DNA of 64,000 nt from Aggregicoccus sp. 17bor-14 (GTDB lineage Bacteria > Myxococcota > Myxococcia > Myxococcales > Myxococcaceae), in NCBI RefSeq assembly GCF_009659535.1, contig NZ_VJZZ01000001.1, forward strand, positions 573,424 through 637,423, read 5' to 3'. The notes beneath the pieces were generated by a model. It was not told where the DNA came from, did no database searches, and was given only the letters and a program-made list of their open reading frames with translations. The translations under genes were made by a program, and so were the position numbers. Below, in pieces: positions 17,016 to 20,857 of the stretch. The stretch's first letter is position 1. The number at the start of each line of letters is the position of its first letter.

Positions 17016-17303
17016 ATGCCCGGATGCGCTCACTGTGGACAGGTGCTGGACATCGTCGGCAACCAGGTCGGCCGCAGCGACGAGTGTCCCAAGTGCGGCG
17101 AGGAGATCCGCTCCTGCCGCAACTGCCGCCACTTCGATCCCGGCGTGGCCAAGGAGTGCAAGGAGCCGCTCGCCGAGGTGCCGCGCGACAAGGACCGCGC
17201 GAACTTCTGCGAGCTGTTCCAGATCGGCGAGGGCGGGCTCCACGCGAAGGAGAGCCGCTCGGCGCTGCTGAGCGCCGCCGAGGCACTGTTCGGAAAGAAG
17301 TGA
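17016..17303 (+). CDS. Small cysteine-rich zinc-ribbon protein
   Basis: A 95-residue cytoplasmic protein. Its first 65 residues carry paired cysteines CAHC (4-7), CPKC (23-26) and CRNC (33-36) plus two single cysteines (AKECKEP and NFCELF). This fits two zinc sites of a double zinc-ribbon or rubredoxin-like fold. The segment CRNCRHFDPGVAKECKEP..DKDRANFCELF is the kind of motif seen in small proteins annotated only as zinc-ribbon domain proteins. The C-terminus is a short helix. It faces the acyl-CoA dehydrogenase gene tail to tail, 22 bp apart. Confidence 0.75.
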   Translation: MPGCAHCGQVLDIVGNQVGRSDECPKCGEEIRSCRNCRHFDPGVAKECKEPLAEVPRDKDRANFCELFQIGEGGLHAKESRSALLSAAEALFGKK

Positions 17304-17325
17304 GGCGCCCCGCCGGCCGTCCCCT

Positions 17326-18465
17326 TCAGAAGCCGGAGAGCTTGGAGATGATCTCCTTCATCACCTCGGAGGTGCCGCCGCCGATGGTGATGAGGCGGAT
17401 GTCTCGCCAGGCGCGCGCCACCGGCGTCTCCTCGATGTAGCCCATGCCGCCGAAGAACTGCTGGCAGTCGTAGGCCACGCGCTGGGCGAGGTCTCCGGCG
17501 AAGAGCTTCGCCATGGAGATCTCCTTCACCGCGTCCTGCTTGCGGTCGAAGAGATCCACCGCGTAGTAGCAGAGCCGGCGCGCCGCCTCGATCGCGGTGA
17601 GGTGCTCCACGAACTTGTGGCGCCACACCTGGAACTTGATCAGGGGGCGCCCGAAGGCCTCGCGCTCCTGGCCGTAGCGCAGCGAGTCCTCCACCATGCG
17701 GTCCATGCCGGCCACCGTGGTGAGCGCCCCCACCAGGCGCTCGCCCTGGAAGTTCGTCATCACGTGGTAGAAGCCCTCGTTCTCCTCGCCCAGGATGTAG
17801 CGGCGCGGGATGCGGCAGTCCTCGAAGTAGAGGATGGCGGTGTCGGAGGAGAGGTTGCCCACCTTGTCGAGCTTCTTGGAGACCGAGAAGCCCTTCACGT
17901 CCGTGGGGAAGGTCACCAGCGAGATGCCGCCGTAGCCGGCCTCACCGGTGCGCACCGCGAGCGTGATGAAGTCCGCGCGCGTGCCGTTGGTGATCCACAT
18001 CTTCGAGCCGTTGATGACCAGGTCGTCGCCGTCGCGGCGCGCGGTGGTCTTGAGGCTCGCCACGTCCGAGCCGCAGCCCGGCTCGCTCACGCCCAGCGCC
18101 GCGATGCGCTCTCCGGCGAGCGCCGGCGCGAGGAACTCGCGCTTCTGCTCGTCCGAGCCGATCTCGTTGATGATGGGCGTGGCCATCTGGCTCTGCACCA
18201 GCAGCGCCATGTTCACGCCCGCGTTGCGGCTGCGGCTGAGCTCCTCGCAGAAGGCGGTCACGTACCAGTAGTCCAGCCCGCTGCCGCCGTACTTGGGATC
18301 GTGGTTGATGCCGAGGAAGCCCAGCTCGCCGAACTTCTTGAACACCTCGCGCGGGAAGATGCCCGCGCGATCCCACTCGAGCGCGTACGGGGTGAGCTCC
18401 TTCTCCACGACGGCGCGCACCGACTTGCGAAACGCCTCGTGCTCCTCGGTGAAGGGGTTCAGCAT
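17326..18465 (-). CDS. Acyl-CoA dehydrogenase
   Basis: A 379-residue flavoprotein that oxidises acyl-CoA to enoyl-CoA and passes electrons to ETF. Typical blocks are the N-terminal helical domain, [37 protein letters not shown] and the C-terminal [32 protein letters not shown]. The usual short/medium-chain catalytic Glu position in YEGTSE is Gly here (IGGGTSE). The likely base is the Glu in [10 protein letters not shown], the placement known for isovaleryl-CoA and long-chain acyl-CoA dehydrogenases, so branched or long-chain substrates are plausible. A GGAGG site supports the ATG. A palindromic operator lies 22 bp upstream. Confidence 0.94.
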
Positions 18466-18486
18466 GGCGCGGACCTCCGGCTCGGG

Positions 18487-18508
18487 GTGTTGACTCGCAA
18501 GTCAACAC
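18487..18508. promoter_or_regulatory. Palindromic operator TTGACT-N4-AGTCAA, copy 1
   Basis: A perfect inverted repeat with 9-bp arms (GTGTTGACT and AGTCAACAC) around a 4-base centre (CGCA), between the racemase-like gene and the start of the acyl-CoA dehydrogenase gene. The same core occurs before the SCP2 gene at 20190. The symmetry and spacing are typical of a TetR-type repressor site. The binding protein is not identifiable in this window. Confidence 0.68.
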
Positions 18509-18540
18509 CAGGCCCGGGGCCCGCGCAATGGCCCCCCGGG

Positions 18541-19731
18541 CTAGAGCCCGAGCGCGCGCAGGCGCTCGTCGGACACTCCGGCCTCGCGCAGGATCTCGCG
18601 CGAGTGCTGGCCGAGCCCGGGCGGCGGGCGCAGGGGCGTCTCCCCCAGGCGCAAGGGGGTGAGCAGGTGCGTGACCTGCTTGCCGCGCTGCGGGTCCTCC
18701 GCCTCCACGAAGAGCCCGCGCGCGCGCAGCTGCGCATCCTGCAGCACCTCGTCGCCCTCGAGCACGGGCTCCACGCAGAGATCCAGCGGGCGGAAGCGCT
18801 CCACCCAGTGCGCGAGCGGCTGCAGGGCGAAGCGGCGCGCGAGCTCGCCCTTCACGCGCTGGCCCGCCTCGCCGCCCGAGTACGCGTCCGCGAGCAGCTC
18901 GGGACAGCCCAGGGTCTCGAGCAGGCCGGTGAAGAACTTGGGCTCGAGCGCGCCGACGGAGAGGTAGCGCCCGTCCTGCGTGCGGTAGAGGCCGTAGCCC
19001 GCGAAGCCTCCGTTGAGCACCTCCTCGCCGCGGCGCAGCGCCGGGCCCTCGGCGCCCAGCGCGAGCCGCCCGGCCAGGTGCATGTGGAGGAAGGCGAGCG
19101 CACCGTCCGTCATGGACACGTCCACGAAGCGCCCGCGCCCCGTGCGCTCGCGCTCGTGCAGCGCTGCGAGGATGCCCACCAGCGCGAAGAGGCTGCCGCC
19201 GCCGATGTCCCCCAGCTGCACGCCGGGGAAGGCGGGCGCCCCACCCGCCTCGCCGCCGTAGCCCAGCACGCCGGCGCGAGCGGCGTAGTTGATGTCGTGC
19301 CCTGCGCGCAGCCGGTCCGGTCCGCTCGCGCCGTAGCCGCTGATGGCGCAGTAGATGAGTCGCGGGTGGCGCGCGCACAGGGCCTCCGCGCCCAGGCCCA
19401 GCTTGTCCATCACCCCGGGCCGGAAGCTCTCCACGAGGATGTCGTAGCGGCCCGCGAGCTCCTCGAGCACGGCGCGGCCCTCGGGGCGCTTCAGGTCCAG
19501 CGCGAGCGAGCGCTTGTTGCGGTTGAGGCCGTAGAAGAGCGCGCTCTCACCGGACTCCTGCAGCGGCGGCGAGTGGCGCAGGTAGTCGCCGCCCTGCGGG
19601 TCCTCCACCTTGTCCACCTGCGCGCCCAGGTCCGCGAGCACCAGCGTGGCGTAGGGCCCGGGCAGCAGCCGGGTGAGATCCAGGACCTTGAGCCCCTGCA
19701 GCGGCAGGCCCTGCGGCGACGAGGTGGACAT
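18541..19731 (-). CDS. CaiB/BaiF family enzyme, alpha-methylacyl-CoA racemase-like
   Basis: A 396-residue class III CoA-transferase-fold enzyme. It carries the racemase pattern: GHDINYAARAGVLGY, which supplies the catalytic His, and LGDIGGGSLFALVGILAALHERERTGRGRFVDVSMTDGAL, where the Asp of LGDIGG corresponds to the second catalytic residue of alpha-methylacyl-CoA racemase. The N-terminus (LKVLDLTRLLPGPYATLVLADLGAQVDKVE) is typical. Racemases of this type invert the 2-methyl centre so branched acyl-CoAs can enter beta-oxidation. It lies between the SCP2 and acyl-CoA dehydrogenase genes, all on the same strand. A plain CoA-transferase role cannot be excluded. Confidence 0.88.
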   Translation of the reverse strand: MSTSSPQGLPLQGLKVLDLTRLLPGPYATLVLADLGAQVDKVEDPQGGDYLRHSPPLQESGESALFYGLNRNKRSLALDLKRPEGRAVLEELAGRYDILVESFRPGVMDKLGLGAEALCARHPRLIYCAISGYGASGPDRLRAGHDINYAARAGVLGYGGEAGGAPAFPGVQLGDIGGGSLFALVGILAALHERERTGRGRFVDVSMTDGALAFLHMHLAGRLALGAEGPALRRGEEVLNGGFAGYGLYRTQDGRYLSVGALEPKFFTGLLETLGCPELLADAYSGGEAGQRVKGELARRFALQPLAHWVERFRPLDLCVEPVLEGDEVLQDAQLRARGLFVEAEDPQRGKQVTHLLTPLRLGETPLRPPPGLGQHSREILREAGVSDERLRALGL

Positions 19732-19834
19732 GGTGGGGGCGGCTCCGGGGACGGCGGGCTCACGAAACGCACGCGGCGCGGTCCCCGGCGGGGCCGGAGA
19801 GCGCGCCGCATGCGGTGCGACGGGGAAGGCTCGC

Positions 19835-20170
19835 CTAGGCGAGCAGCTTGCCCAGCTTCATCGCGAGGCCCATGTCCATGGGCTTGAACTTGAGCTTGCC
19901 CTGCATCGCGGCCATCTGCGGGTTGAGCTGCTTCTGGCGCAGCTTCACGAAGTCCTGGTCGCTCACGGTGACCGTCATCTTCGGCTCGCCGTTGAGGCCG
20001 GTGCTCACCCAGTCGGAAGGCTTGGTGAGGTCCACCGTCCACTGCCCGCCCTGGTCGCCCGTCACGTTGAAGTGGACGATGGCGTTGATCTCCTTGGCCA
20101 GCTCCGGCTTGGCCTTCAGGACGTTGGGGATCTCGGTCTCGAGGATGCTCTTCGCGGTCAGGTCGGCCAT
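19835..20170 (-). CDS. SCP2 sterol-transfer-domain protein
   Basis: A 111-residue single-domain protein of the SCP2 family, which binds lipids or acyl-CoAs in a hydrophobic tunnel. It shows the amphipathic first helix, the central strands (INAIVHFNVTGDQGGQWTVDLT and PKMTVTVSDQDFVKLRQKQLNPQMAAMQGKLKFKPMDMGLAMKL) and the short C-terminal helix, with no signal peptide. The ATG at 20170 is chosen over one 12 bases upstream because GGAGGA is correctly spaced for it. The gene heads a same-strand run with the racemase-like and dehydrogenase genes. A palindromic operator lies 20 bp upstream. Confidence 0.9.
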   Translation of the reverse strand: MADLTAKSILETEIPNVLKAKPELAKEINAIVHFNVTGDQGGQWTVDLTKPSDWVSTGLNGEPKMTVTVSDQDFVKLRQKQLNPQMAAMQGKLKFKPMDMGLAMKLGKLLA

Positions 20171-20189
20171 GCGTTCCTCCATGCAGCGG

Positions 20190-20205
20190 TTGACTGATGA
20201 GTCAA
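20190..20205. promoter_or_regulatory. Palindromic operator TTGACT-N4-AGTCAA, copy 2
   Basis: The core TTGACT-GATG-AGTCAA matches copy 1 in both half-sites and spacing and differs only in the central four bases. It lies about 20 bp before the SCP2 start codon, where a repressor would block transcription. Two identical 6-bp half-site pairs before two genes of one lipid pathway are unlikely to be chance. Confidence 0.68.
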
Positions 20206-20271
20206 TACGGGGCGGACCGTAACCACCGCCCCTGCGGAGATCAAGGCGCAGCTGACGCAGTCGCGTGCGCG

Positions 20272-20664
20272 TCAGCGCTGCGCGGGAACGGCGGACGGCT
20301 CGAGGGAGCGGCGCACCAGCTCGAGCAGATCGTTGAGCTCGAAGGGCTTGGCGAGGTGGCCCACCGCGCCGAGGTCCGTGGCCTTGCTGCCCACGTTGCG
20401 GTCCGCGCTGAGCACGATGATGGGGATGCGGGCGATCTCGGGCGGGCGCTGGCGCATGCGCTGCGCGAACTCCCAGCCGTCCATCACCGGCATCATCAGG
20501 TCCAGGAGGATGAGCTGGGGCGCATCCGGCTCCAGCCGCTCGAGCGCCTCCTTGCCATTGCGAGCGCGACGGATCTCGAAGCCCTCGGCCTCCAGGATTT
20601 CGGAGAGCGCTTCGAGGATGTCCGGGTCATCGTCGACGACGAGCACCGTGCTGGGACGTGTCAT
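20272..20664 (-). CDS. Single-domain response regulator
   Basis: A 130-residue receiver-domain protein with no output domain. Key residues are the acidic cluster Asp11-Asp12-Asp13, phospho-acceptor Asp55 (LILLDLMMPVMDGWEF), Ser86 and Lys106 (HLAKPF), all standard. It is divergent from a histidine-kinase-like gene, with 193 bp between them that must hold both promoters. Stand-alone receivers of this kind carry phosphate to other proteins or act as diffusible regulators. A cognate relation with the neighbouring kinase is plausible from position only. Confidence 0.92.
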   Translation of the reverse strand: MTRPSTVLVVDDDPDILEALSEILEAEGFEIRRARNGKEALERLEPDAPQLILLDLMMPVMDGWEFAQRMRQRPPEIARIPIIVLSADRNVGSKATDLGAVGHLAKPFELNDLLELVRRSLEPSAVPAQR

Positions 20665-20857
20665 TGAGGGAGTCGATGAGGAGGTCGAGGCGGCCAGGTG
20701 AGAGTTGCTCCGCGTGCAGCATGCGAATTGTCCCCGAGAAGGGCGACTGGCGGGTGAGAAATCGTGCCCGGGCGCCGGATGTTCTGCCCACGTTGCAAAC
20801 TCAACAGGGCCTCCCCACCTTCCCCAAGGGTCGGTGTGAGCCCCAGAGGAGGCGCGC

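Follow-up and report, generated by a model that had tools for sequence, protein, structure and literature searches.

Two copies of one palindrome, TTGACT-N4-AGTCAA, are located upstream of genes of lipid metabolism within a 64-kb stretch of DNA, here called the window, and raise the question of whether they are control sites, which protein would read them and which genes it would govern. The first copy, TTGACTCGCAAGTCAA, occupies positions 18490-18505, 24 bp upstream of the start codon of an acyl-CoA dehydrogenase gene (acd; 17326-18465, minus strand, 379 aa; Pfam PF02771, PF02770 and PF00441), and is embedded in a longer perfect 10-4-10 palindrome, GGTGTTGACT-CGCA-AGTCAACACC, covering 18486-18509. 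The second, TTGACTGATGAGTCAA, at 20190-20205, lies upstream of a gene encoding a SCP2 sterol-carrier-domain protein (19835-20182, minus strand, 115 aa; PF02036), 7 bp from its first ATG and about 19 bp from an internal start at 20170, which has GGAGG and is likely the true one. Both copies match the motif exactly and are assigned to neither strand. Between them is also a gene for a CaiB/BaiF-type family III CoA-transferase (18541-19731, minus strand, 396 aa; PF02515, 352 bits), probably part of one transcription unit with SCP2; the SCP2-CaiB gene order is retained beside the site in relatives. The initial annotation had reported two exact copies, with identical half-sites and spacing, before a SCP2 and an acyl-CoA dehydrogenase gene. 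Both copies are present, the gene identities are borne out by the Pfam matches, and the range originally given is correct for the second site, but starts at 18487, three bases before the actual beginning of the first.

The base composition of the window (72.6% GC) predicts 0.00014 exact copies in a stretch of this length and 0.015 in the 6.92-Mb genome; 2 are observed in the window and 3 in the genome (G000), against none for a control of identical composition, obtained by reversing the pattern. No third match with up to 2 mismatches is present within the 64 kb, the next best having 3. Perfect 6-N4-6 palindromes are common as such, 57 being found in the window against 47 expected, and the outstanding feature is the recurrence of this AT-rich half-site, not palindromy itself. 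The third exact copy of the genome is located on contig C14 (95183-95198; L016:8184), 166 bp after dnaA and 257 bp before the gene of an amidase-golvesin protein. It forms a perfect ATTGACT-N4-AGTCAAT palindrome, within a mnmE-yidC-rnpA-dnaA region where no lipid gene is found alongside.

When the genome was searched with the looser form TGAYT-N4-ARTCA, 7 copies were detected, against 2 for the reversed pattern. The two window sites, a site before a second acyl-CoA dehydrogenase gene (C15) and one before a lipase/thioesterase-like gene (C3) are associated with lipid genes; for the other three, located near dnaA on C14, on C11 and on C20, inspection of the neighbours revealed no clear lipid gene, and their number is near that predicted by the control. 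In addition, a copy with one mismatch, TTGACCCGAAAGTCAA, lies before two successive genes, the first encoding a FadN-type 3-hydroxyacyl-CoA dehydrogenase/crotonase and the second a thiolase. The site is absent from FadI and from 9 of the 11 acyl-CoA dehydrogenase paralogues of this genome, so that the regulon falls short of including all of beta-oxidation. A small regulon for acyl-CoA catabolism had been proposed initially: its link to lipid genes stands, but the set is wider than two genes and variable between species, and the sites on C14, C11 and C20 lack a clear connection of this kind.

The motif was also searched in 96 species of Myxococcaceae: 61 genomes carry it, with 83 exact copies in all, and the reversed pattern occurs 4 times, a difference of about 20-fold. 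A set of 80 distinct exact copies, from Myxococcaceae and three more genomes of the order, was inspected. For 70 of them a reference protein starts within 200 bp downstream; about 67 have a lipid-catabolism gene at this distance, a figure obtained by subtracting S15 hydrolases (2) and TetR (1) from the 70, with families verified by Pfam. The genes behind the 70 sites encode acyl-CoA dehydrogenases of several kinds (27), FadI thiolase (14), FadN (11), SCP2 (6), lipase-like proteins (5), S15 hydrolases (2) and, one each, EtfB, MFE-2, an iron-sulphur oxidoreductase, a carboxyltransferase and TetR itself. Since the reference proteins were picked from these very sites, this tally only describes what is there, and the enrichment rests on the reversed-pattern control and on the footprint described below. 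At one locus (L054, genome G011) the motif precedes a gene whose product, a membrane iron-sulphur oxidoreductase, resembles FadF; genes of the FadF type belong to the Bacillus FadR regulon. At three Myxococcaceae fadN loci (L046, L063 and L076) the site separates fadN from a divergently oriented gene (MARLDPHSYND...), which starts near the site and may be co-regulated.

Exact copies precede beta-oxidation genes in related genomes too, and looser ones recur at comparable positions. The form YTGAYT-N4-ARTCAR is found, with no mismatch, 31-71 bp upstream of the acd orthologues in 15 of 17 family genomes, and a loose site is located upstream of the SCP2 orthologues, at matching distances, in 18 of 19 relatives carrying the tetR gene described below. 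In a comparison between genera of the acd, SCP2 and tetR sites, half-sites are 89-90% identical, as against 32-34% for the 60 flanking bases, a value close to chance at such GC content: the flanks are saturated, while the half-sites are retained. The two palindromes of the window are very probably real switch sites, placed before genes for fat breakdown.

As the initial annotation had stated, no TetR gene is present in the window: all 18 genes with a TetR_N domain found in the genome map elsewhere. The candidate regulator is the product of one of them, P0001; this gene, at C1:722136-722870, begins on the contig about 85 kb after the last position of the window, and is the counterpart of a TetR gene of genome G024 carrying the exact motif directly upstream. 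P0001 has orthologues in 88 of the 96 family genomes and in 113 of the 145 genomes of the order, in single copy with one exception. The loose motif, with few mismatches, is located just upstream of tetR in most of the first 24 orthologue loci inspected. In 79 tetR loci from named records, which include Myxococcus xanthus, Corallococcus, Archangium, Anaeromyxobacter and Myxococcota MAGs, YTGAYT-N4-ARTCAR is present upstream without mismatch in 46, against 0 for the reversed pattern, and with at most one mismatch in 60, against 1. Nearly all of the Myxococcaceae examined have the site before tetR; it persists in some Myxococcota MAG relatives at 39-41% protein identity, and at several Anaeromyxobacter loci it is weak or missing. 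In G000 itself the tetR site is degenerate (CCGATTGGAAAATCAA), differing from the exact form by 4 mismatches, and matches nearer to that form, with 3 mismatches, are present at three further TetR loci of this genome (L034, L040 and L041); for these reasons, the assignment to P0001 rests on the relatives. The initial reading of the palindrome as a TetR-type operator is supported by the existence of a candidate TetR protein with a site before its own gene, to which it would bind. The check proposed with that reading, a genome scan looking for lipid genes and a tetR gene beside the motif and for its retention in related genomes, turned out largely in its favour.

The TetR_N domain of P0001 is recognized by PF00440 with 62.7 bits, against a cut-off of 24. 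The best NCBIfam model is that of Bacillus FadR (NF053878), which gives 90.4 bits, below its cut-off of 200, and the protein is therefore named FadR-like, not FadR. When a profile built on 27 relatives was compared to PDB sequences, the top four matches were all Bacillus FadR, with E values around 1e-32, the next one being at 1e-20. Modelled with AlphaFold (pLDDT 86, pTM 0.80), the M. xanthus orthologue is all helical, and its best fold match is again Bacillus FadR, at Z 22.5 and 26% identity, with an rmsd of 1.8 over 184 residues; Z is 19-20 for other TetR proteins. The lead of FadR is modest by fold, as TetR folds are alike, and clear by sequence. By profile and predicted structure, P0001 is classified as a FadR-like TetR protein.

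Regulator and sites tend to occur together. The SCP2 site is found in 18 of 19 TetR carriers, against 0 of 8 other genomes (Fisher p = 4e-6), and the acd site in 15 of 18 carriers, against 1 of 6 others (p = 0.007), both values being uncorrected for shared ancestry. The sole TetR carrier without the SCP2 site matched just a 42%-identical paralogue. In genome G001 the TetR gene is absent, and so are the sites before acd, SCP2 and fadN; similarly, both TetR and sites are absent from the examined genomes of families f7, f8 and f9. Three genomes (G010, G027 and G033) have the TetR gene and no acd site. In G005 the acd site is present, together with a SCP2 site with one mismatch, and the TetR gene was not found in the draft assembly.

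The wiring described so far is made up of the sites and their conservation, the enrichment for lipid genes, the site at tetR in relatives, the co-occurrence and the similarity to FadR. From these elements we infer, with high confidence, that the window palindromes are operators of P0001, which would act as an autoregulated FadR-like repressor released by long-chain acyl-CoA. When fatty acids are lacking, a P0001 dimer would sit on TTGACT-N4-AGTCAA, or more generally on YTGAYT-N4-ARTCAR, near the promoters of the acyl-CoA dehydrogenase, SCP2-CaiB and fadN-thiolase genes, of further lipid genes and of its own gene, and would block their transcription. Once fatty acids are available, the long-chain acyl-CoA formed would bind the C-terminal domain of P0001 and free the protein from DNA, thereby switching beta-oxidation on, while the site before its own gene would close the regulatory loop. 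Acyl-CoA is proposed as the signal because of the kinship to FadR and of the nature of the targets.

P0001 might also act through the same sites as an activator, or sense a signal other than long-chain acyl-CoA, such as a branched- or short-chain one, although we consider this unlikely. AibR, which we take to be a M. xanthus protein, is a TetR regulator solved with isovaleryl-CoA, according to the title of PDB entry 5k7z, and myxobacteria are rich in iso-branched fatty acids; on the other hand, the closest solved relatives of P0001 are FadR regulators, one of which was solved with stearoyl-CoA, and for most sites the distance to the start codon is about 10-70 bp, so that a bound protein would block transcription there. 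It is considerably less probable that the sites, while being operators of the lipid regulon, are read by another TetR protein or by a regulator of a different family, P0001 being just one of the targets. Regulator genes can themselves be controlled by other regulators, exact copies of the motif are also found before unrelated TetR genes in two genomes (G010 and G019), and the matches at L034, L040 and L041 are closer to the exact form than the P0001 site of the same genome. These three matches, however, are single asymmetric or differently shaped ones, and two of them fall inside the gene, whereas P0001 is the TetR protein whose presence tracks the sites, whose own site is kept down to 39-41% identity, and whose nearest solved relatives control beta-oxidation. 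Chance, or a non-regulatory element such as a transcription terminator or a -35 box, is hardly credible as the origin of the palindromes: TTGACT does resemble the -35 hexamer TTGACA, and the first site, located between two genes, could form a hairpin, but a consensus scan for sigma-70 promoters and terminators over positions 17200-20800 detected nothing promoter- or terminator-like, both arms are conserved while the flanks diverged, the sites lie upstream of gene starts, and a chance origin is refuted by the footprint and by the excess over the reversed pattern.

Two of the loci with other TetR genes can be described further. In G010 the exact motif (L047:1501-1516) is located 19 bp upstream of a TetR gene whose product has a weak BetI-like C-terminal match, and which is divergent from an acyl-CoA dehydrogenase-like gene. 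The exact motif is also found in two genomes of 2-3 Mb without P0001 (L057 in G019 and L138 in G104); the copy at L057 is just before a different TetR gene, probably coding for an unrelated regulator with a similar operator.

With P0001 retained as the probable reader of the sites in Myxococcaceae, sister family f7, from which it is absent, provides a term of comparison. In two f7 genomes (G029 and G035) another palindrome, TGAATGA-N4-TCATTCA, precedes both acd and SCP2 by about 20-55 bp, at L171:1448-1465, L174:2669-2686, L199:1848-1865 and L201:1449-1466, and these are its only occurrences among 347 loci. We take this palindrome to be the operator of Bacillus FadR, the consensus of which reportedly derives from work by Matsuoka in 2007. 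The arrangement suggests that acd and SCP2 continued to be controlled together through a change of operator and, probably, of regulator. Whether the regulon was in fact rewired between two operators with its targets kept, P0001 acting at TTGACT-N4-AGTCAA in Myxococcaceae and some other regulator reading TGAATGA-N4-TCATTCA in f7, appears evenly balanced; if true, f7 would be a naturally occurring example of one operator being exchanged for another at the same target genes.

For fatty-acid breakdown in Myxococcaceae, M. xanthus included, both an operator and a strong candidate for its regulator can now be named, and the comparison of about 140 related genomes outlines a fat-burning gene set shared across the family. 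M. xanthus uses up its lipid bodies as the spores mature, and its fadI/fadJ pair, MXAN5372/5371, shows an increase in the course of development (PMC4048283). In the literature searched, no regulator of this kind is described for M. xanthus, and neither the motif nor a myxobacterial FadR came up in text searches, which covered few subscription journals. The regulon itself is new, while the type of system is already known, and the way in which myxobacteria switch on beta-oxidation becomes directly testable.

Several known systems are similar, to different extents, to the one described here. PsrA, described for several proteobacterial groups, and FadP, described for betaproteobacteria, are TetR-type regulators of fatty-acid degradation, whose regulons were reconstructed by comparative genomics (PMC5343134). 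FadR of Thermus thermophilus, a TetR regulator of fatty-acid degradation, binds TTRNACYNRGTNYAA (PMC5597230), a palindromic operator with TTG-like and CAA-like ends, which differs by its length of 15 bp and its shorter centre, and the protein is not among the best sequence or fold matches of P0001. AibR (5k7z) provides an example of a TetR protein bound to both acyl-CoA and operator DNA, but ranks lower as a fold match, at 21% identity, and its ligand is isovaleryl-CoA. The closest system is that of Bacillus FadR (YsiA; B. subtilis and B. halodurans; PDB 1vi0, 3whb, 3whc, 5gp9, 5gpa and 5gpc), the best match of P0001 both by fold and by sequence profile, the latter over nearly its full length. 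Bacillus FadR, a repressor of beta-oxidation that acyl-CoA frees from its DNA, controls targets of the same kinds, namely genes for acyl-CoA dehydrogenase, for a FadN-type 3-hydroxyacyl-CoA dehydrogenase with thiolase, and for ETF. Identity is about 26%, and its operator, TGAATGAMTANTCATTCA, has half-sites unlike those of P0001; the corresponding palindrome, TGAATGA-N4-TCATTCA, is absent from every locus with P0001-type sites. Unlike that of Bacillus FadR, the regulon assigned to P0001 adds SCP2-CaiB, MFE-2 and lipase-like genes to these common targets.
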